A stretch of DNA of 64,000 nt, taken from positions 1 through 64,000 of the IMG/VR virus record IMGVR_UViG_3300032285_001316; one strand, written 5' to 3'. Made by a program: the position numbers and the translations under genes. Source of the stretch: a virus. Below, piece after piece: positions 3,086 to 61,055 of this stretch (position 1 is its first letter; each line of letters starts with the position of its first letter). The notes beneath the pieces were generated by a model that did no database searches, was not told the DNA's origin, and saw only the letters and a program-made list of their open reading frames with translations.

Positions 3086-3220
3086 ATGGTGGACTGGGTT
3101 GTTTTAACCAACTTTTTCCCTGGATGGTCCTTAGAAGAAATTAAGTCTCTTTCACCCAGAGAAAGAAAAAACTGGATAGACCTCTCTACGGGGTTTAGAA
3201 AAGCCCAAGTAAGGATTTAG
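3086..3220 (+). CDS. small ORF between gp26-like gene and tape measure; possible frameshift extension
   Basis: A 44-residue frame starting MVDWVVLTNFFPGWSL. It sits in the +1 frame relative to the preceding gene and its frame is open back to 2942, overlapping that gene by 120 nt. No Shine-Dalgarno sequence precedes the ATG, unlike almost every neighbour. It ends 3 nt before the tape measure ATG. It could be a separate coupled gene or the T part of a G/GT-like chaperone produced by ribosomal frameshifting. No clear slippery heptamer was seen. Confidence 0.45.
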   Translation: MVDWVVLTNFFPGWSLEEIKSLSPRERKNWIDLSTGFRKAQVRI

Positions 3221-3223
3221 CGT

Positions 3224-5755
3224 ATGCCAGAAATCGATAGCTTTGAGAAGCTCGTTTCTGTACTCAATGAGGCAAAGAAACTGTCGTCTCAAATTGAGTC
3301 GTCTTGGGAGAAGATTGAGAAAGCTTCTAAGGGAGCGTCAGAATCAGGCATTGGCGGAAACGTTGGTGGTCAAGCTGGTCACTCTAAAGGACGGCAAGTC
3401 GCATCCAGTTTTTCTGGTAGCGGTGCACCCAAAAAGACTGGGGCCATGCCTTCTCAGGGAGATATGGCCGCTGGTGGTGGAACTGGCTTAGGCAGGGTCG
3501 CTGCAGCTGCTACCCGCGCAGTTTTTGGTGGTTCTCGCGGAGGTGGGAGGGGTTCTGCCCTTAACTCTTTTATGCAGATGCAGCCAGAACAGCAGCAATC
3601 TATTTCTAGTAACTTGTTTGGTTTGGGGGATGCGCTAGCTCTATTCCAAAACATGTCTTCAGCAACTGCTCAGTTCCTCCCTGGTGTATCTGACACCATG
3701 AATCGTGCCACAAAGTATTACAATGCCACTACATACGGTGGAAACCAAATGTCTCGCAATGCTGTTCAGTCGGCTACATTTGGCACGCTTGGCGGTATGG
3801 CTGGGATTACTTCTGCTGGATCTGACGCTGCTGTTGCACAGATTTTATCTGGTCGTGGAATGACTGTTTCATCAGATCCAAACAGCACGTACCAGCAGAC
3901 CTTGCGTACGGTAGCAAATGCGGGGCGCTATCTCAACATCTCCAATGAGCAAGCTGCTGCATCTGTAGAGGGGCTGACCTCTGCTAAGGGTTCCGCAAAT
4001 ATGCTGCGTAACTTTGGTATTTACACGGCTGATCTGAGCACAGGTAAAGAAAAGACTCAGGGGCAGATTTTCCAAGAACTGGCTGACCGACTTACCGCTG
4101 GTCGTGGACAAGCCACAGTAGAGCAGACGCAGGCGTCTATCCGTCGCGGCGCTCTGGGTGTGACTATTGACTCCTTCTTCCAAGGAGATCAGCAAGGTGC
4201 ACAAATGTTCAAGCAGTACATGATTGAACGTGCTGGTGGAAAAACGATGGACCTCTCGCAGGCCACTCCTATGGGTGGTCCCGCAGGCAACCAGAACCCT
4301 CTGCAGCCTCAAATGAATTTGGCGACAAAACAAACTGGCGCAATGGGCATGGCTGAGTCAGAATTCATTAAGGGTGTTACGGCTGCCACAGGAGCACTCA
4401 GTGCCCTGACAGATGCGTCTGGTGGTCTTGCGTCTGTGATTGGTGGGGCTTCCTCCCTTTTGCAAACACTTCTTGGTAATCAGAGTTTTAAGGGTCTGAC
4501 TAGCGGCGCTACCTCTCTTGTTAACTTTGCTAGCAAGGGCATCACGGGAATTAGCAACACTCTTGCGGGGCTAAACCCACTTAACCCCGCTCCTTCACTC
4601 CTTCAGGCGGGAGTAATCGCGGGTGGTATGACAGCTGCAATTGGCGGTGTTGCAGCTATGGGCGGTGTGGCTCAGATGGCGGCTAATGCTTTTGGCGGAA
4701 CTGGAGGGTCTTCTTCGTCATTAACGGGGTCTATAGGAAGCCCTTTTTCTGGAAAGGGAGCGTCAGTATCTACGGCGTTTAATCCATCAAGCGACTTCAG
4801 TAACATTCCTGGTATGCGACAAGGAGACGCTGTAACCAGTTCTTCTGGAACTGGATCCCCCGCTATTGGTCAAGCTATGGTTTCTCTTGATTACCTCTCA
4901 GGAGTTCAGCACACCACAGAATATGGTGAACCTCAGGCGGTTGTTGGAGGAATTCACCACGGAACAGACTACGGCCTTCCTGCTGGAGCAGATGTTAAAG
5001 CGGTTGCCGACGGTGTGGTATGGAGCGTCATCACTTCAGGTCAGGTTTGGACTCAGGCTCAAATTGACTCTGGTAGAGGTCCTGGTGGAATTGACGGAAA
5101 CCAGGTAAAGCTCAAGCACACAGCTGCTGATGGAACGGTGTTCTTCAGTATGTACAACCACCTATCTCAAGTACTGGTTTCCACAAGTGACCAGGTAACT
5201 AGAGGACAGGTAATCGGTAAGGTTGGTCGAACTGGCGCTGCCACAGGTCCCCATCTTCACCTGGAATTCCAAAACTCTCATGGAACACCCATTCCTCCAG
5301 GAGAAGTTATGGGATATTTGGAGGGGGCAAATAGTGGTGGACAGGCAACTAGCTCCTCGGGGTCGTATAGTCAAAAGGCGCTTACAGATGCTATGACCCA
5401 AGGGGCTAAATATCAGCAGATGCCCACCGCTGCAGTAAACGCGTTTAACACACTGCAAAGTCTCTACTCTGGAGATACATCACAGATTCTTGCAGCTGTT
5501 AATACTATGGGCGGTACTCTTGGAATTAGCCCTAGTATCTTAGGGCAGTACATGAACGCGACTAACCCTACAGCAGGTACCCCTGCCGCATCAGCAGCGG
5601 CTGCTGCTGCCTCTGGCGGTGGGGCGGTAAACAACAACGTTAGTATTACAGTTCAAGTTCCCGATGTAACATCTGCTGACGCACTAAAATTTGCCAACCT
5701 TGTTAAGTCCTACCTGGACAACAACACGCTCATGTCTAACACAGGAAGTGTATAG
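3224..5755 (+). CDS. tape measure protein with M23 peptidase domain
   Basis: An 843-residue protein rich in Ala, Gly, Ser and Thr with long hydrophobic and coiled segments, in the tape-measure position between tube and baseplate genes; it would set tail length and leave first during injection. Residues about 555-695 form an M23 (lysostaphin-type) zinc endopeptidase: HHGTD near 577 gives the first His/Asp ligands and PHLHLE near 675 the catalytic and third ligand His. Such a domain on a tape measure is known in phages of Gram-positive hosts and would open the peptidoglycan at the entry site. A further Ala-rich linker (residues 785-800) precedes the C-terminus. Length is short for a myovirus tape measure, suggesting a short tail. 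Confidence 0.85.
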   Translation: MPEIDSFEKLVSVLNEAKKLSSQIESSWEKIEKASKGASESGIGGNVGGQAGHSKGRQVASSFSGSGAPKKTGAMPSQGDMAAGGGTGLGRVAAAATRAVFGGSRGGGRGSALNSFMQMQPEQQQSISSNLFGLGDALALFQNMSSATAQFLPGVSDTMNRATKYYNATTYGGNQMSRNAVQSATFGTLGGMAGITSAGSDAAVAQILSGRGMTVSSDPNSTYQQTLRTVANAGRYLNISNEQAAASVEGLTSAKGSANMLRNFGIYTADLSTGKEKTQGQIFQELADRLTAGRGQATVEQTQASIRRGALGVTIDSFFQGDQQGAQMFKQYMIERAGGKTMDLSQATPMGGPAGNQNPLQPQMNLATKQTGAMGMAESEFIKGVTAATGALSALTDASGGLASVIGGASSLLQTLLGNQSFKGLTSGATSLVNFASKGITGISNTLAGLNPLNPAPSLLQAGVIAGGMTAAIGGVAAMGGVAQMAANAFGGTGGSSSSLTGSIGSPFSGKGASVSTAFNPSSDFSNIPGMRQGDAVTSSSGTGSPAIGQAMVSLDYLSGVQHTTEYGEPQAVVGGIHHGTDYGLPAGADVKAVADGVVWSVITSGQVWTQAQIDSGRGPGGIDGNQVKLKHTAADGTVFFSMYNHLSQVLVSTSDQVTRGQVIGKVGRTGAATGPHLHLEFQNSHGTPIPPGEVMGYLEGANSGGQATSSSGSYSQKALTDAMTQGAKYQQMPTAAVNAFNTLQSLYSGDTSQILAAVNTMGGTLGISPSILGQYMNATNPTAGTPAASAAAAAASGGGAVNNNVSITVQVPDVTSADALKFANLVKSYLDNNTLMSNTGSV

Positions 5756-43862: not shown

Positions 43863-44144
43863 TTACCGTCCTTCGTACTGCCACATGACTGCGTTGCACA
43901 GTGAGTGCACTGCGCCCTCAGTCATGCCTGTATCGTGATTGTGCTGTAGGTGTACGGGGTACTTAAGGAACTGAGGAGGAAATAAGTTCCAATTGACTTC
44001 CTTGTTACGTACTTCCTCTGAAGGAGACCAGTTAAGCGCTTTGCCACAGTAGTAGCACTTACCTTCTTGTAGCTTGACGTACTCTTCACGTACTTCCTTG
44101 CGTTCAAGTGTGGTTAGCTCCTCATAGTTAACAGGTAGTTCCAT
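43863..44144 (-). CDS. HNH endonuclease-like protein
   Basis: 93 residues. CYYCG near 29, then LQHNHDTGMTEGAVHSLCNAVMW near 67-89, the His-Asn-His arrangement of small phage HNH proteins with a zinc ribbon. Start behind AAGGAGCAAACA. May nick host or competitor DNA or function in packaging; unknown. Confidence 0.7.
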   Translation of the reverse strand: MELPVNYEELTTLERKEVREEYVKLQEGKCYYCGKALNWSPSEEVRNKEVNWNLFPPQFLKYPVHLQHNHDTGMTEGAVHSLCNAVMWQYEGR

Positions 44145-44155
44145 TGTTTGCTCCT

Positions 44156-44629
44156 TTACACAGGCCAGATATATTCGTAGTCAGTTGGTTGGTAGCCTGG
44201 ATCTTCAGCCCAACCGAACTGTGAGTACCACTCGTAGTCCTTAACAAGTAGCGCCTTGCGGTGAGTACTTGCGATGCTCTCGTAGTCAGGACCAGTCATC
44301 CACAGTGGGGCAACGTCTACAAAGGTATCGTGAGACGCCTGAATAGTTGCTGTTGCCTTTTCACCGATGGTTGACTTGAAGCCACGTCGCTTCCACTCCT
44401 CCACCATCGTGACGATGTAGTTGTAAAGGACGAGCTCGTGACCGCGCCACATCTTAGCTGCGGGATGGTTGTACCAGCCCTTGGGTTCACGGTGATTACC
44501 TTGTGGGTCAAGCTTGAGGTTGGTCATAAGTATCTGCCAGCCCTCAAGTGCTTGCTTGTTAAGGCGTTTGTTGTCTAGTACTTTAGCGATGTCCGCGAAG
44601 GAACTCGTCAAAGGAACGAACGTCTGCAT
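44156..44629 (-). CDS. MSMEG_6728-like conserved protein
   Basis: 157 residues. MQTFVPLTSSFADIAKVLDNKRLNKQ and GWYNHPAAKMWRGHELVLYNY match a conserved family in actinobacteria and phages that starts MQTFLPY..F and keeps NHPA..MW.G. Its biochemical function is unknown to me. Has only a weak ribosome site. Confidence 0.6.
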   Translation of the reverse strand: MQTFVPLTSSFADIAKVLDNKRLNKQALEGWQILMTNLKLDPQGNHREPKGWYNHPAAKMWRGHELVLYNYIVTMVEEWKRRGFKSTIGEKATATIQASHDTFVDVAPLWMTGPDYESIASTHRKALLVKDYEWYSQFGWAEDPGYQPTDYEYIWPV

Positions 44630-44738
44630 ATTTTCTCACTTCCCTTTCTTCCAATAGTCCACGTACACTGACGCAGATTCCAAATACACAAAAGGACATA
44701 AGCCCGATGCTTACTGCGGTAAAGATGTCCTCAATCAT
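44583..44738 (-). CDS. small membrane protein
   Basis: 51 residues starting MIEDIFTAVSIGLMSFCVFGI, a single membrane helix followed by a charged helix. TAATG overlap with the preceding gene, and its end overlaps the next gene by 47 nt. Too small for standard gene calls, plausible by coupling. Confidence 0.45.
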   Translation of the reverse strand: MIEDIFTAVSIGLMSFCVFGICVSVRGLLEEREVRKYADVRSFDEFLRGHR

Positions 44739-44857
44739 TAATCGTCTCCAAACATCTCAAAAGACTTCTCTTGATAGTCGTCATACATCTCGTCACAGTA
44801 ACAGGGCGAGAATCCGCAGGTAGAACAAGGCTCGTCCTGTTCCTCTTCCTCAATCAT
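44738..44857 (-). CDS. 39-residue cysteine-rich acidic protein
   Basis: Strong AAAGGAGAAAACA ribosome site. Acidic sequence with CSTCGFSPCYC, four cysteines in eleven residues suited to metal binding. Similar in style to other small phage zinc proteins in this block. Confidence 0.55.
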   Translation of the reverse strand: MIEEEEQDEPCSTCGFSPCYCDEMYDDYQEKSFEMFGDD

Positions 44858-44868
44858 TGTTTTCTCCT

Positions 44869-45060
44869 TTATTCGTGGCTAATGCCGTGTTCTTGATCGA
44901 TCTCAGTGTGGATGTCCCGCCTCAATCGGGGCAAGATCCATTTTTTAAATACTACGTTGTACAGCAGGGCAATAACAATACCGTCAAAGATAACTGTCCA
45001 AAATAGTTCAGCGATGATGTGATTGGGGTCAGTGGCTATGTCCCACCATGTCTCAGTCAT
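44869..45060 (-). CDS. small membrane protein
   Basis: 63 residues; one membrane helix at 20-38 (FWTVIFDGIVIALLYNVVF) then a basic stretch KKWILPRLRRD. AAAGGAGT ribosome site. Overlaps the next gene by 8 nt. No family recognised. Confidence 0.55.
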   Translation of the reverse strand: MTETWWDIATDPNHIIAELFWTVIFDGIVIALLYNVVFKKWILPRLRRDIHTEIDQEHGISHE

Positions 45061-45256
45061 CTAAGTACTCCTTTAGGCACACTACACATATTGGCGTGTA
45101 GTCCCCTTTATTGGAGAACATGACTGGGATATCGGGATGTCTCTCACACATCCCCATATCCTCGTCTAGCCAGTTGTAATTTGTTTGTGTTGGACGTTTA
45201 CGCAGCCCCTTGATAGAACCGCGTAATGTCTCCCACACGTCGTGCACGCGCGACAT
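45053..45256 (-). CDS. small zinc-ribbon-like protein
   Basis: 67 residues from the ATG behind GAGGAGG. N-terminal half basic (RGSIKGLRKRPTQTN), C-terminal half with CERHP and CVVC, a two-pair metal site. The gene starts inside the 3' end of the adjacent WhiB gene, in another frame. Confidence 0.55.
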   Translation of the reverse strand: MSRVHDVWETLRGSIKGLRKRPTQTNYNWLDEDMGMCERHPDIPVMFSNKGDYTPICVVCLKEYLDD

Positions 45257-45581
45257 CTGCATCCTCCTCTTTCTTAGTAAGGACCTTCTTACGTTTCTCC
45301 ATGGCACGGATGTGCTCTGGGATTATTGACTTGTCTCGTTCCATGATTCGGCGCTCATATTGTGTTGCGCCTCCCCAAATACCAAACTCCTCTTCGTTGG
45401 TAAGTGCGTAGTCTAAACACTGTTGCAGGATGTCACAGCGAGCACACACGTCGATTGCTTTAAGCATCTTGTGTGTCTTCTCACTTCCAGCACTAAACAC
45501 TTCAGGAAAGAATATGTCTGGGTCAGTGTTTTGACAGTTAGCCTCATCGGCATTGGGTACGTAGTTGATGAGGTTGAACAT
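45198..45581 (-). CDS. WhiB-family regulator with basic tail
   Basis: 127 residues. Cysteines at 16, 46, 49 and 55 (CxxCx5C), GIWGGATQYERR near 67, then a long basic tail EKRKKVLTKKEEDADVARARR expected for DNA binding. Strong AAGGAGG ribosome site. The full canonical WhiB layout suggests a working sigma-factor partner and promoter-binding regulator. Second of two WhiB genes in this block. Confidence 0.88.
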   Translation of the reverse strand: MFNLINYVPNADEANCQNTDPDIFFPEVFSAGSEKTHKMLKAIDVCARCDILQQCLDYALTNEEEFGIWGGATQYERRIMERDKSIIPEHIRAMEKRKKVLTKKEEDADVARARRVGDITRFYQGAA

Positions 45582-45591
45582 TGCATCCTCC

Positions 45592-45759
45592 TTAGGACTT
45601 CATCATGAGTGACTGCAGGTGTCGGTATGCTTCATAGTTACCTTGCGTCCATTCATCCATGTCCTCTCCATCAAAGCCCCACATCTCCATGTCATCTTCG
45701 ATGGCGCGTACACGATCGCAGATGTACTTGAAGATGTCCTCGTTACTCATGAGTGCCAC
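45592..45759 (-). CDS. unidentified small acidic protein
   Basis: 55 residues. The GTG start is preferred, having GGAG about 10 nt upstream and sharing bases with the preceding stop (TAGTG). Acidic helical sequence (DRVRAIEDDMEMWGFDGEDMDEW). No family. Confidence 0.5.
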   Translation of the reverse strand: MALMSNEDIFKYICDRVRAIEDDMEMWGFDGEDMDEWTQGNYEAYRHLQSLMMKS

Positions 45760-45938
45760 TAGTTATCTTCTCCTATGATGTCGTGCTCAAGAGCGAACGG
45801 CTCGAGAGTGTTATAGTCATCGCCCAGCGTCATGTTGAGCGATATAAGGATGTTACCGTCAGCCTGTGACATTGCCACAGCCTCGGGAGCAAACGCGAGA
45901 ACGTGCTCCATGATGTCGCTTAGTGTTGCCTTACTCAT
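45759..45938 (-). CDS. unidentified small protein
   Basis: 59 residues; AAAAGGAGAAACAG precedes the ATG. Contains LSDIMEHVLAFAPEAVAMSQ and a beta strand GNILISLNM. Fits a short chain of coupled small genes. Function unknown. Confidence 0.5.
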   Translation of the reverse strand: MSKATLSDIMEHVLAFAPEAVAMSQADGNILISLNMTLGDDYNTLEPFALEHDIIGEDN

Positions 45939-46095
45939 CTGTTTCTCCTTTTATCTCATCTATCGCTCTCCACCAGTTGAAGTGCGCGATTGTTCCTGAA
46001 GGCATATTACCGAAGATTTCAGTCACGATTTCCATCGCTCGTTTTCTTTCGTCTTGTCGTGCCTTTGCTATTGCTTGCTCCTTGTTCAGTGCCAT
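45931..46095 (-). CDS. unidentified small basic protein
   Basis: 54 residues, GGAGAAAGTAA precedes the ATG. Very basic first half (AIAKARQDERKRAMEIVTEI). The ATG of the next gene lies within its last codons. No motif. Confidence 0.5.
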   Translation of the reverse strand: MALNKEQAIAKARQDERKRAMEIVTEIFGNMPSGTIAHFNWWRAIDEIKGETDE

Positions 46096-46210
46096 TTACT
46101 TTCTCCTTATGACAATCACACGGACACACTAGGGGTGCGTTGTTCCATTCGAACTCGTTGATACATTCGCTATGCTGGCTGGTTAGACACCACCCGAACT
46201 TCAGACTCAT
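46019..46210 (-). CDS. small cysteine-rich protein
   Basis: 63 residues, strong AAAGGAGGAAG ribosome site. CLTSQHSEC and CPCDCH resemble the short actinophage zinc proteins ending in a C.C.CH signature; the tail is basic and disordered. It overlaps the neighbouring gene by 77 nt, so one of the two frames may be weaker. Confidence 0.5.
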   Translation of the reverse strand: MSLKFGWCLTSQHSECINEFEWNNAPLVCPCDCHKEKVNGTEQGASNSKGTTRRKKTSDGNRD

Positions 46211-46952
46211 CTTCCTCCTTTGTTCCTGCGTTACGATACTCCTCTGCGTACTCTACGTCCTTGATTTCAGCAGCCTCGGGAAGGTCATACCCAGACTCGG
46301 CTGCCTTAGCTGCCTCAAGAGCATCAACCTCAGTGCGCGCTTGTACATAGTACTTGGTTACTACCTCAACTACATAAACGCTTTTGGTTTTGCCTGGGCA
46401 GTCATCGAACCAGTCGTCAGGGTCACTAGAGTTGGCGCACCAACACCCGTCTTCATCGTCACGTTTGACATAGTCTGCGTGAGATGATGGGCTGTCCCAC
46501 TCCTCCATAGAGGTAAGGATGTTAGCCTTCATCGTGTACTCTGCGCCGTACTGTTGCTCCTCTTCCCACCAGACATCGAACTCAAGAGCAGGATACTTAG
46601 CAGACATAGCTTCAATTACAGGCAGAGGGTGACTCCACGCTGTCTCAAAAGAGATGTACACGCTTGTAGGATCAACGGAGACCTCTGCGTTACAGGCATC
46701 CCATTTCGTATTCCAGTGGGCGTTGTTCCAGTCATACCAGACACCTCCTTTAGTTTCGCCAAAGGAGCTACCCTCTACAGGAGTTCCAAGGTATTCTTCC
46801 TTTGTTAGGTCAGGCGTTACAAAGGAGTGGAATGAGAATGGGGATGGTTCATTACCAGCAAGCTTAGGGGTGTCCTCAATGTGTTCTAGGAACGCTATGC
46901 GGTCATCCTCTGGCCCAGTAATGCTAATGCGGTTGTATACCCAGTTAGGCAT
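46170..46952 (-). CDS. Api92-like (DUF1281) protein
   Basis: 260 residues starting MPNWVYNRISITGPEDD, the standard opening of Api92-like ferredoxin-like proteins, followed by WNNAHWNTKWD and FETAWSHPLPVIEAMS, typical of the family. The C-terminal part has CWCANSSDPDDWFDDC and an acidic end. Members are encoded by many phages and conjugative elements; the function is unknown. Confidence 0.7.
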   Translation of the reverse strand: MPNWVYNRISITGPEDDRIAFLEHIEDTPKLAGNEPSPFSFHSFVTPDLTKEEYLGTPVEGSSFGETKGGVWYDWNNAHWNTKWDACNAEVSVDPTSVYISFETAWSHPLPVIEAMSAKYPALEFDVWWEEEQQYGAEYTMKANILTSMEEWDSPSSHADYVKRDDEDGCWCANSSDPDDWFDDCPGKTKSVYVVEVVTKYYVQARTEVDALEAAKAAESGYDLPEAAEIKDVEYAEEYRNAGTKEEDESEVRVVSNQPA

Positions 46953-46980: not shown

Positions 46981-48930
46981 CTACACGCCAGCGTTGATTA
47001 GGTTGCGCTTGATGCCAAGGTTGACGATGCCACGACCAAGTGCGAACAGGTCATTGGTATCAGTGATGTGTACGGCTACCTCGCATCCGTGAGTATCTAC
47101 GGGAGTATCATCATTGTGATACGTTTCTCGTGGGTCAGATACAAAGGCTAGTGCGGTAAGCACACCAGCACGACGGAACTCTTTGAGTAGCTTGTCACTT
47201 GCTTCGCTGTCACTCCATACACCATCAGTGATAGTGATACAGAGCTTGATAGCACGCTTAGACTCAGCAAGAACATTCTTGGCATACTTGAGCGTTTGTA
47301 GTGGCTCAGTACCACCACGACACCAAGACATGCGTACGTTAGTACTTACTCGCTCCTCAGAGGAGTAAAGGACAAACGGACGGTGGTCATAGGCAAGGAC
47401 TGTAGTACTTGCGTTAGCACGATCAAGGGCACGCTTCATAGCCCACATGGACTCGAACGCTCCCTTGGCCATACCCTGCATAGACCCAGAGATATCTAGC
47501 AGGATGACTGCCTCGATGTCTACGGCATCCTCACGCCCGATATCCCACTCATCGAAGCACTCGTCAAGGTCAGTGCCTGTAACGTAGCGTTGGATGTTGA
47601 GACGCCCGTGCTCAGTACGGCGTAGCCAACCTGGGTCAAACTCTGCTCGCAATCGCTCTAACTCGGTAGCAAAGGACTTGGAAGCCTGTGCTATTTCCTT
47701 AGGAACAACCTCGTCAAAGGTATCGAGACGTGATGGCTTGCCAGCATTGGTAGACGTAAGCTCAGCGTCTGCGTTGTACTGCTTGATTGTCTGGGCAATC
47801 TCACGCGCCTTAGACTGCTTGACCGTGTTGATGATGTCCTTGGCAATATCTGACAGGGACTTGTCACCAGTAGCAGAGCCACTGCCCATGGAGTCAGGCG
47901 TACCATCTTGAGCGCCCTCGTTGCCGTTGGTATCTGCGGATGTTGCGTTATCCTGCTCGATAGCATCAGCCACACGTTCGCTAACCTTCTGCTGTTCTGC
48001 CTTGGACATGGGCTTAGACTTGGAAGCCTTCCACTCACCAGTAGCACGGTGGTCATGACCTGATGGGTCACTTACACGCTTCCACCCACTGTTGTTGTTC
48101 CAACTGTTGTTGTTCCAGTAGTCCGTAGACGTGCTAGGCAACTGGGTGATTAGTGCGTCGTACTTTTGGATAATGTCTAGCGCAACTGCGTAGTTCTTAG
48201 GGTCAGCAAGGTTGAGCACAATGTACTGGTCAATCAAGCTACCAATTTCCTGTACGTGCTGAGGCTGTTCGTACAAGTCAGCTACCTGCTTACGCAATTC
48301 CTTAGGCAAGTACTTGCGCCCATGGAGTAAAGGAAACGCTACATTCCATTGCTCAGGCTCATCCATGATGAACTTAGCGACTGCCGCCTTGAGCCAGTCA
48401 GCTACATTACCGAAACGCTTAGTCATATACATCTCGATACGCTGGTCTTCTAGAGCATTGAACGCCCGCCATAGACCCTGCTTCTGTACATCCTTGGCAA
48501 GGTTGCTACCAGCACGTGGGGTAAGGAGGATGTGGGCAATCTCGTGAAGGCTAAGCCCCTTGATGTTGAGCACGGTGTCGGGGCTGGTGAGATCCTGTAA
48601 CGAGTTCTCGTGAAACCAGATGTTATCGGAGTCTGACCATGCGGGAGCGTCAGGCGTGCCCTGAGCCATCTTGCCCCCCATGTCTACACGGATGGGGCGC
48701 AAGGTAAGAGTGCTAGCGAACTTAGACACAACTTGTAGCATACGTACACGTCTAGCAGTGTCGGGGTCTAGCAGGTCGGTGTTGTAGAACTTAGGCGTGG
48801 AAATGTTTGTGTTGGTAGCATCCTCGCCTACTTGGATGTTGTCGATAGCGTCTACCATGTTCTGCACGTGCTTGTCCTTGGAGGACTGTATCGCAGACAG
48901 GATTGACTGTAGTGCGTCATCAGGGTTCAT
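46981..48930 (-). CDS. zincin-like/VWA fusion protein (CobT-like)
   Basis: 649 residues. LHEIAHIL at 128-135 is an HExxH zinc site, with NALEDQRIE (158-166) offering the third Glu ligand, so the N-terminal half is a metallopeptidase-like domain. A disordered N/S/T-rich region at 270-360 follows. VWA domain from about 474: VILLDISGSMQG (MIDAS DxSxS at 479-483), a GGTEP Thr and ITDG. VWA proteins paired with MoxR ATPases act as chaperone machines on specific targets; the gene next door encodes such an ATPase. AAAGGAGCAAACA ribosome site. Confidence 0.75.
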   Translation of the reverse strand: MNPDDALQSILSAIQSSKDKHVQNMVDAIDNIQVGEDATNTNISTPKFYNTDLLDPDTARRVRMLQVVSKFASTLTLRPIRVDMGGKMAQGTPDAPAWSDSDNIWFHENSLQDLTSPDTVLNIKGLSLHEIAHILLTPRAGSNLAKDVQKQGLWRAFNALEDQRIEMYMTKRFGNVADWLKAAVAKFIMDEPEQWNVAFPLLHGRKYLPKELRKQVADLYEQPQHVQEIGSLIDQYIVLNLADPKNYAVALDIIQKYDALITQLPSTSTDYWNNNSWNNNSGWKRVSDPSGHDHRATGEWKASKSKPMSKAEQQKVSERVADAIEQDNATSADTNGNEGAQDGTPDSMGSGSATGDKSLSDIAKDIINTVKQSKAREIAQTIKQYNADAELTSTNAGKPSRLDTFDEVVPKEIAQASKSFATELERLRAEFDPGWLRRTEHGRLNIQRYVTGTDLDECFDEWDIGREDAVDIEAVILLDISGSMQGMAKGAFESMWAMKRALDRANASTTVLAYDHRPFVLYSSEERVSTNVRMSWCRGGTEPLQTLKYAKNVLAESKRAIKLCITITDGVWSDSEASDKLLKEFRRAGVLTALAFVSDPRETYHNDDTPVDTHGCEVAVHITDTNDLFALGRGIVNLGIKRNLINAGV

Positions 48931-48977
48931 TGTTTGCTCCTTTGTTTGTAGGAGGGGGGCTTGCGCCCCCCACCTGG

Positions 48978-50399
48978 TTAGTTAGTGGAGTACTTACCGA
49001 TGCTAACGCCAAGCTCGTTGGCGATAGTAGGCGCTTCAGCATCAAAGCGCATCTTGATAGCGTCACGCTCACCGTCCATCTTGGGGTAGTTGGACAGGAG
49101 AGAGTTGACCGCGAACTCAAAGTTCAGGCTCGTAGCATGAGACACAAAGTTCTTGAGGATACGAGTGGACATTGGTACAGAGAACTCATCGTTCATCTCG
49201 GATGCTTCACGGATATTGCTAGCAAATCCTAGGAGCGTGAAGGATGGGATGAAGTTACTCTCGATGTTGGTATCGTAGGTGAACTCCAACTTAGTACCGA
49301 AGCGGTCAATCAGCGCGGCATCTTGACGGCTAGTACCTGTGTACCCAATGCCTGTGTTCTGGTCGGCAATGAATAGCACGTCGGGGTGTACCTTGATGAC
49401 CTCATTGAGTGGGTCGATACGCAACTCGCGCTCTTCCAAGAGGCTAAGGAACAACGGAGCAGCCTTAGGAGTCATACGCGTCAACTCGTTGATGAGGATA
49501 ACACTAGGCTGTTGGATTGCCGTAGCCAGTTGGCTGTACTTCCAGCGGGTAGTGTTACCTACGCCTGTCGGTACGAACCTACCCTGTGTAACTGTCTGGT
49601 CAATCTGCTGGGTACATTCGATGGTTACGAATGGCAAGCCCTTGATTGCCGCGTAGTTACGGGCACTCGATGTCTTACCTGTACCAGCATCACCAGTAAG
49701 CAAGACATTGTCTTGCTTGCTACGTGCGTTGTCGTATATCTGCTCCTCAGTAAGTCCAAAGAACTTACGTGTGAAGTAGGGCTTGACATCTGGCACGGTA
49801 AGCACTGCGCCATTCTCTGCGGTGCTGGCAACGATTGTGCTGTAATCCATGTCTGGCTCACTTTCTGTTGTCGGAGGCAATCCCACGGTGGGAAGCTCGT
49901 AGATAGGCTCACTCAAAGGTTGCGAAGCAACCCCCGCGTAAGCGGGCTCTAGTACTACTGGCTGTTCTACGGGAACAGGAACAACCTGAATGCTAGGGCT
50001 TACTACCACTGGGGTAGCAACAAGATACTTAGCAAGTACTGCTGGGTTAGCGATCGCGGCATCCATCACTTCGTCATAGACTTCGTGGAATGGGCGACCA
50101 CTTACCGTATCCATATCCTTTACTGTGCGTACAAGCTTCTGTACTAGCACGGTAGGGGTGATTGGGAACTGAAGCATCTGGTAATCGGCTGGGGTAAGGG
50201 CTACTGACATAGGCACGCCTACGCTATCACCTACGAAGCTCAGCACATCTCCACCAGATAGCTCTCGCCAAGCACCTGCCGTACCCCTAAGCCCCTTACC
50301 ATCACGGGTGAACCTACGGATATTGCCGTCTTGTAGAGGCACAATAACTACCTGCTGAATACCTGTTGGGGTATCTTGCTGAAGGATAGTCGCGAACAT
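48978..50399 (-). CDS. MoxR-type AAA+ ATPase (CobS-like)
   Basis: 473 residues. Walker A LTGDAGTGKTSS near 235-246, Walker B VILINELTRM near 293, and a MoxR-like insert and sensor region (FLSLLEERELRIDPLNEVIKVHP, IADQNTG). An N-terminal 200-residue extension with a Pro/Val-rich linker is unusual. MoxR/CobS ATPases work with VWA partners, here the downstream gene. Strong ribosome site AAAGGAGATAAGTA. Confidence 0.8.
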   Translation of the reverse strand: MFATILQQDTPTGIQQVVIVPLQDGNIRRFTRDGKGLRGTAGAWRELSGGDVLSFVGDSVGVPMSVALTPADYQMLQFPITPTVLVQKLVRTVKDMDTVSGRPFHEVYDEVMDAAIANPAVLAKYLVATPVVVSPSIQVVPVPVEQPVVLEPAYAGVASQPLSEPIYELPTVGLPPTTESEPDMDYSTIVASTAENGAVLTVPDVKPYFTRKFFGLTEEQIYDNARSKQDNVLLTGDAGTGKTSSARNYAAIKGLPFVTIECTQQIDQTVTQGRFVPTGVGNTTRWKYSQLATAIQQPSVILINELTRMTPKAAPLFLSLLEERELRIDPLNEVIKVHPDVLFIADQNTGIGYTGTSRQDAALIDRFGTKLEFTYDTNIESNFIPSFTLLGFASNIREASEMNDEFSVPMSTRILKNFVSHATSLNFEFAVNSLLSNYPKMDGERDAIKMRFDAEAPTIANELGVSIGKYSTN

Positions 50400-50686
50400 T
50401 ACTTATCTCCTTTGTTGTTTAGAACAATGCGCTTGTATTGGACATTGTCTGTGTGGTTGTTTACGTACTCGCTATCAAACTCGATGCGACTACTGGGTAG
50501 GTCATTGTCTAACAACCTATCCTCTAAGTACCTGACTAGGTCAAGCACTGCGTAGGGGTCATTACTTGTGTCGAAGTACAGGGCATCTAGTACCGTGTAC
50601 AACTCTCGTGCCGTAAACACTACGTCTACGGTTGTGCTGTCGATGGGGTCTAGAGTCTCTACAACCTCATCATCTATCTCTAACAT
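50399..50686 (-). CDS. unidentified acidic protein
   Basis: 95 residues; AAAAGGAGAG before the ATG and stop coupled to the MoxR-type gene. Acidic and helical (LYTVLDALYFDTSNDPYAVL). May be a small partner of the AAA+/VWA machine because of the overlap; no motif. Confidence 0.5.
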   Translation of the reverse strand: MLEIDDEVVETLDPIDSTTVDVVFTARELYTVLDALYFDTSNDPYAVLDLVRYLEDRLLDNDLPSSRIEFDSEYVNNHTDNVQYKRIVLNNKGDK

Positions 50687-60978: not shown

Positions 60979-61055
60979 GCCCCCTTAACTCAGTTGGTCA
61001 GAGTGCGATACTTGTAATATCGAAGTCAGGCGTTCGAACCGCCTAGGGGGCCCCA
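60979..61055 (+). tRNA. tRNA-Thr(UGU)
   Basis: Acceptor GCCCCCT/AGGGGGC, D stem ACTC/GAGT, anticodon stem CGATA/TATCG with loop CTTGTAA (anticodon TGT), T arm AGGCG-TTCGAAC-CGCCT, CCA encoded at the 3' end. It reads ACA codons. The only tRNA found. Confidence 0.92.

Follow-up and report, generated by a model that had tools for sequence, protein, structure and literature searches.

Organization of the locus

The 64,000-nucleotide stretch analysed here (hereafter the window) originates from the 93,151-base IMG/VR virus record IMGVR_UViG_3300032285_001316, and its gene content includes tail sheath, portal, terminase and baseplate genes as well as PolA, a DnaB helicase and a UvsX-like protein. 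Between 43 and 54 kb, the minus strand holds a cluster of small genes that accommodates an AAA+ ATPase and its VWA partner, the two being separated by a gap of 47 bases. In this genome, the pair is encoded on the strand opposite to the structural genes and apart from them. The genes considered are the following:

50399..50686, minus strand: small acidic ORF (95 aa), overlapping the ATPase start
48978..50399, minus strand: MoxR/NorQ-type AAA+ ATPase gene (473 aa; Pfam AAA_5 5e-21; fold match NorQ 2e-15, CbbQ 2.5e-15)
46981..48930, minus strand: zincin-like/VWA partner gene (649 aa; ORF; AlphaFold2 model m62b8ef053fdc)
46170..46952, minus strand: DUF1281/Api92-like gene, downstream of the pair (Pfam 1.8e-10)
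45198..45581, minus strand: WhiB regulator (Pfam 1.5e-19)
44156..44629, minus strand: pyrimidine-dimer DNA glycosylase of the T4 endonuclease V type (Pfam 1.3e-16)

The original prediction of two adjoining minus-strand genes, a MoxR-type ATPase and an HExxH/VWA fusion, agrees with what is found, since both ORFs, the Walker A and B motifs, the HExxH motif and the MIDAS are as described. Hence, a gene with intact Walker A/B motifs stands beside a VWA gene with a MIDAS, as in MoxR AAA+/VWA pairs in general, and the combination of N-terminal HExxH, C-terminal VWA, adjacent MoxR gene and phage origin corresponds to the type reported in PMC7824862. The small acidic gene had additionally been proposed as a third subunit. 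Its position overlapping the ATPase start is real, but the proposed role is unsupported and was rejected, the sole detectable homologue being that of one relative (L009; 60% identity, same place); in front of every other related ATPase, no homologue could be detected.

WhiB is present in all 39 related virus records searched, that of the window included, while of 14 control genomes Corynebacterium glutamicum alone gave a match; therefore, the host of this phage is likely actinobacterial. A megablast search with 24 kb against a phage collection gave no match, and thus the collection contains no close isolate. The window also features a lone tRNA-Thr (TGT) gene at 60979-61055.

The ATPase

The following elements were distinguished within the ATPase gene:

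50025..50399, minus strand: N-terminal domain of no known family, residues 1-125 (pLDDT mostly >90)
49815..50024, minus strand: disordered linker, about residues 126-195 (pLDDT about 45)
49671..49694, minus strand: Walker A motif GDAGTGKT, residues 236-243
49542..49583, minus strand: helix-2-insert-like segment GRFVPTGVGNTTRW, residues 273-286
49485..49502, minus strand: Walker B motif VILINE, residues 300-305

Among 53 ATPases, the Walker A residues G236 and G241 are invariant and K242 is found in 52 (one X), while G273 and W286 of the helix-2-insert-like segment as well as E305 of Walker B occur in 53/53. Judged by sequence, residues 273-286 may be the counterpart of the GRxLL/IxxxxT region of NorQ, which is reported to grip the finger of NorD (PMC13036017). 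In both fold and AAA profile the ATPase is nearest to NorQ and CbbQ, midasin aside, with profile values of 1e-27 for NorQ and 1e-26 for CbbQ versus 1e-11 for CobS; despite this nearness, no match to the CbbQ_C domain (PF08406) was obtained in the window's genome.

The N-terminal domain has no Pfam match. It is present in 55 ATPases of the set examined, always fused to the AAA domain, and shorter related ATPases devoid of these 125 residues exist as well. An N-terminal extension of 200 residues had been described beforehand; the extension itself is real, but it consists of a folded domain of about 125 residues followed by a disordered linker of about 70, and the domain, shared by 55 ATPases, is not special to this phage.

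The zincin-like/VWA partner

Within the partner gene, the features are as follows:

48145..48765, minus strand: N-terminal zincin-like domain, about residues 56-262 (AlphaFold2, pLDDT mostly >90)
48532..48546, minus strand: HEIAH (within LHEIAH), residues 129-133
48433..48453, minus strand: LEDQRIE, residues 160-166, with a candidate third metal ligand
47701..48144, minus strand: variable linker, about residues 263-410 (low-confidence stretches in the model; poorly conserved)
47518..47700, minus strand: finger-like segment ahead of the VWA domain, about residues 411-471
46984..47517, minus strand: VWA domain, MIDAS D479-x-S481-x-S483, T541, D569 (fold match NorD 1e-7, MDN1 MIDAS 4e-7)

AlphaFold2 predicts the N-terminal domain and the VWA domain with confidence (mean pLDDT of the protein 81.9). 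The former is mostly helical, with strands at 81-107, an HExxH-bearing helix at 117-136 and a second helix at 154-172 that carries ED-R-E. Both HExxH and the candidate third ligand thus reside on predicted helices, with a strand region preceding the first, so that motif and secondary structure are compatible with a zincin; among the PDB matches listed there is no zincin. The domain matches phrog_1576 and, weakly, the phrog_459 'peptidase', and the partner gives no match above the Pfam cut-off to the DUF2201_N putative metallopeptidase (PF13203). In 5,000 shuffles of the partner, HExxH alone arose in 1.3%, while HExxH, E-x4-E and DxSxS jointly arose in 0.02%. The expected coexistence of a zincin-like site (LHEIAH) and a VWA MIDAS (DISGS, residues 479-483) in one protein is therefore confirmed, with residues that are invariant or nearly so in 61 relatives, and the zinc-protease-like metal site appears to be intact as far as its residues indicate.

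Conservation and pairing among relatives

A scan of IMG/VR with a single protein yielded no relatives, whereas an alignment query recovered them. In the resulting non-redundant set, H129, E130, H133, E161, D162, R164, D479, S481, S483, T541 and D569 are identical in 61/61 proteins, 60 of which came from the IMG/VR scan, whose seeds were the motifs HE and LEDQRIE. W435, G442 and R448 of the finger-like segment are equally invariant (61/61), and E166 is found in 59, with D in the remaining two. Because the seed comprised two of the scored motifs, a set reached independently of the motif, by similarity or adjacency, is of particular weight: it encompasses seven Gordonia/Brevibacterium phages together with RHEph10, OC, S-ShM2, syn9, N4 gp25, Mareelih gp115 and a Miltoncostaea plasmid, and HExxH is present in all 14.

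The ATPase gene lies directly upstream of the partner gene in each of 87 related loci (80 from IMG/VR and seven from isolates), and gene pairing played no part in the seed of the scan; co-occurrence in related phages, on which the original prediction was to be judged, is thereby borne out. Outside phages, close relatives are all but absent: a collection of 84,980 genomes contained relatives on two contigs only.

Genomic neighbourhood and probable time of action

Within 6 kb of the pair, WhiB recurs in 42 of the 80 relatives and the DUF1281/Api92-like gene in 16. The glycosylase was found in 50 of the 80, and downstream of the pair on the same strand in 49. Co-directional ATPase, VWA partner, glycosylase and WhiB genes were observed here (43863-46952, minus strand) and in the relatives L009 to L088, an arrangement conserved across many uncultured phages that are probably actinobacterial. 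The pair of the Gordonia and Brevibacterium phages is situated between primase/helicase genes and SSB or DnaE genes; that of T4-like relatives adjoins the sliding clamp gene, and two of the three examples also have the clamp loader nearby. In phage N4, the homologous gp24 and gp25 are reported as core genes of N4-like phages and their transcripts as middle ones (PMC4193335). Because of the repair and regulatory neighbours, the replication-gene contexts in relatives and the middle transcripts of N4, the data suggest a role in early takeover or DNA maintenance over one in virion assembly.

The latter role, namely that of a chaperone-peptidase which folds and trims structural proteins, has been explicitly proposed for the same architecture in jumbo phages, and the MoxR-VWA pair of Acidianus two-tailed virus is reported to be required for tail assembly (both PMC7824862); moreover, the N4-like phage RPP1 is described as having a second structural module near its gp24/gp25 homologues (PMC4193335). 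We nevertheless consider it rather unlikely here, given the opposite strand and distant location of the structural genes, the replication-type surroundings in Gordonia and Brevibacterium phages, and the middle rather than late transcription of the N4 homologues. In addition, when the 6-kb flanks of the pair in the 80 relatives were compared by blastp with ten proteins of this phage that are structural or putatively so, no homologue was detected; this marker test is weak for distant phages, and the replication markers likewise found none.

Alternatively, the pair might be a host-takeover or anti-defence factor directed at a particular host complex, which it would inactivate by proteolysis or by other means. 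Neighbours of the takeover type (WhiB, the glycosylase and small uncharacterised genes) and the essentially phage-only distribution of close relatives would accord with such a function, yet its marked conservation in different lineages points to a general requirement and away from a narrow defence target. We regard this explanation as unlikely.

The cobalamin reading

Pairs of this kind have also been interpreted as auxiliary metabolic CobST, which would join the host CobN and boost cobalamin supply for ribonucleotide reductase. This proposal is published for viral cobST (PMC8651126), it is echoed by the database names 'CobT-like' and 'porphyrin biosynthesis', and the finger and VWA segments do match CobT clearly by profile (E=1e-7). 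The family models speak against it: the check for CobS/CobT membership suggested at the outset returned no match of either window protein to TIGR01650 or TIGR01651, the NCBIfam models of CobS and CobT. Furthermore, the ATPase profile is much nearer to NorQ/CbbQ than to CobS, genuine CobT proteins lack HExxH in 12 of 12 cases, CobN was found in none of 50 phage records, although the host itself may encode one, and no large subunit of ribonucleotide reductase was found in this genome or in seven related isolates. Membership of the pair in a cobaltochelatase is hence not supported, we regard a CobST function as very unlikely, and a cobalamin auxiliary metabolic gene was rejected on the negative CobS/CobT model and CobN searches.

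Proposed mechanism

We favour, with somewhat better than even confidence, a NorQD-like remodelling machine that belongs to a phage takeover or DNA-maintenance cluster and whose partner has kept its metal site. The likeness to NorQD is based on the best folds of the ATPase (NorQ/CbbQ) and of the partner (NorD), the same order of parts and the pairing in 87/87 loci, while retention of the metal site is based on its full invariance and on HExxH in the 14 motif-independent proteins. Beyond architecture, pairing, site conservation and family placement, which follow from sequence comparison, six ATPase subunits would assemble into a ring whose pore accommodates the finger ahead of the VWA domain. 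Cycling of ATP would then turn the finger/VWA module and pull on the linker, and a client protein would be gripped at two places, by the zincin-like domain at the N-terminus and by the MIDAS. Since the N-terminal domain has a complete HExxH plus Glu site, the client may be cleaved, or bound at the putative metal, during remodelling. The mechanism of NorQD is reported to be backed by cryo-EM and mutants (PMC13036017); in the open full-text literature, no experiment on any member of a phage pair was found.

Comparison with known systems

The pair had been thought little described, which does not hold. A MoxR-VWA pair with a fused metallopeptidase domain was reported from jumbo phages in 2021 (PMC7824862), as was 'cobST' across tailed viruses (PMC8651126); N4-like phages have it among their core genes (PMC4193335), and a relative, in most cases under the name 'peptidase', is present in hundreds of cyanophage genomes. 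Architecture and pairing are thus already published (PMC7824862; PMC8651126). What is new is a member of a branch with a NorQ/CbbQ-like ATPase and a gene order reversed relative to cyanophage cobST. The jumbo-phage pair ASV44729.1/ASV44728.2, likened here by its description in PMC7824862, shares the ATPase and the VWA cochaperone with N-terminal metallopeptidase domain but stems from another phage group, as opposed to an actinobacterial phage of about 93 kb. Viral cobST (cyanophage 'peptidase'/cobS, RHEph10, OC and haloarchaeal tailed viruses; PMC8651126) has the same HExxH-linker-VWA fusion with a MoxR-type ATPase nearby. However, the order in the examples examined is CobT-then-CobS instead of ATPase-then-VWA, and the ATPases of RHEph10 and OC match the CobS model (1e-49 and 5e-27, below its cut-off), while the one studied here is NorQ/CbbQ-like. 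Phage N4 shares the order of ATPase followed by HExxH/VWA protein, although gp25 is 380 aa long with a different second motif and gp24 is a divergent ATPase. In its record, N4 gp25 (3165-4307 of locus L101) is labelled 'HNH endonuclease', while its HELWH and DTSGS correspond to an HExxH/VWA layout.

Several further relatives were noticed. In Gordonia phage Mareelih (L093, 2500-7669), genes for WhiB, an AAA ATPase, a small protein and an HExxH/VWA protein follow one another as a distant counterpart of the cluster described here; the HExxH/VWA gene is annotated, apparently by misnaming, as 'AAA-ATPase'. An 816-kb plasmid of Miltoncostaea oceani (L100, 2483-4939) encodes a VWA protein with HELCH and NIIEDGRIE; the genes annotated within 4 kb of it include no ATPase. 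Relatives of the RHEph10 HExxH/CobT protein occur in 995 plasmid records, the best-scoring of which, from Rhizobiales and Acinetobacter, measure about 68-119 kb and are possibly phage-plasmids.

Among cellular systems, NorQ/NorD, which serves iron insertion into nitric oxide reductase, provides the best fold matches for both window proteins, and the partner shares with NorD the succession of N-terminal domain, linker, finger, VWA and C-terminal helix; the client of NorQ/NorD is a denitrification enzyme. The cellular set, taken from 150 genomes that belong to the same phylum as a Thiotrichales MAG, comprised 12 CobT proteins over the curated cut-off, nine NorD-type and nine CbbO-type proteins, the last so named by similarity and position and not by a curated model, and all 30 lack HExxH. 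CbbO-type proteins, the counterparts in the Rubisco activase CbbQ/CbbO, have a longer N-terminal region than the partner and retain HxAAH...E-D-x-R-x-E/D at the matching place, that is, possible ligands without the catalytic Glu (absent in 9/9). CobT aligns KRACH...EQARVE at the metal site, and NorD has neither motif. By local hhalign, homology of finger and VWA to NorD, CbbO and CobT is clear (E 1e-7 to 5e-6; NorD 8e-7), whereas that of the N-terminal domain is weak (CbbO E 0.04, CobT 0.17, NorD none); because of this weakness, an eroded zincin in the N-terminal domain of cellular NorD, CbbO and CobT is put forward as a suggestion from sequence. The contrast between intact and lost HExxH in phage and cellular members is not stated in the published text consulted, and no priority is claimed, as only open full texts were covered.

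It is conceivable, if tentative, that the pair studied here, like the other phage pairs named 'CobS/CobT', encodes no cobaltochelatase but an ATP-driven remodelling machine with an active metal site, be it a protease or a metal-holding grip in a NorD-like cochaperone; cellular NorD, CbbO and CobT would then possess eroded forms of the zincin domain. If so, the annotation of hundreds of auxiliary metabolic genes as 'cobalamin' genes would be wrong. Viral ecology assigns the pair, a core component of N4-like phages that is also common among cyanophages, to vitamin B12 metabolism. That HExxH differs between the phage proteins and CbbO, CobT and NorD offers a simple mutational test of catalysis by the zincin domain and constitutes a reason to recheck cobST annotations.
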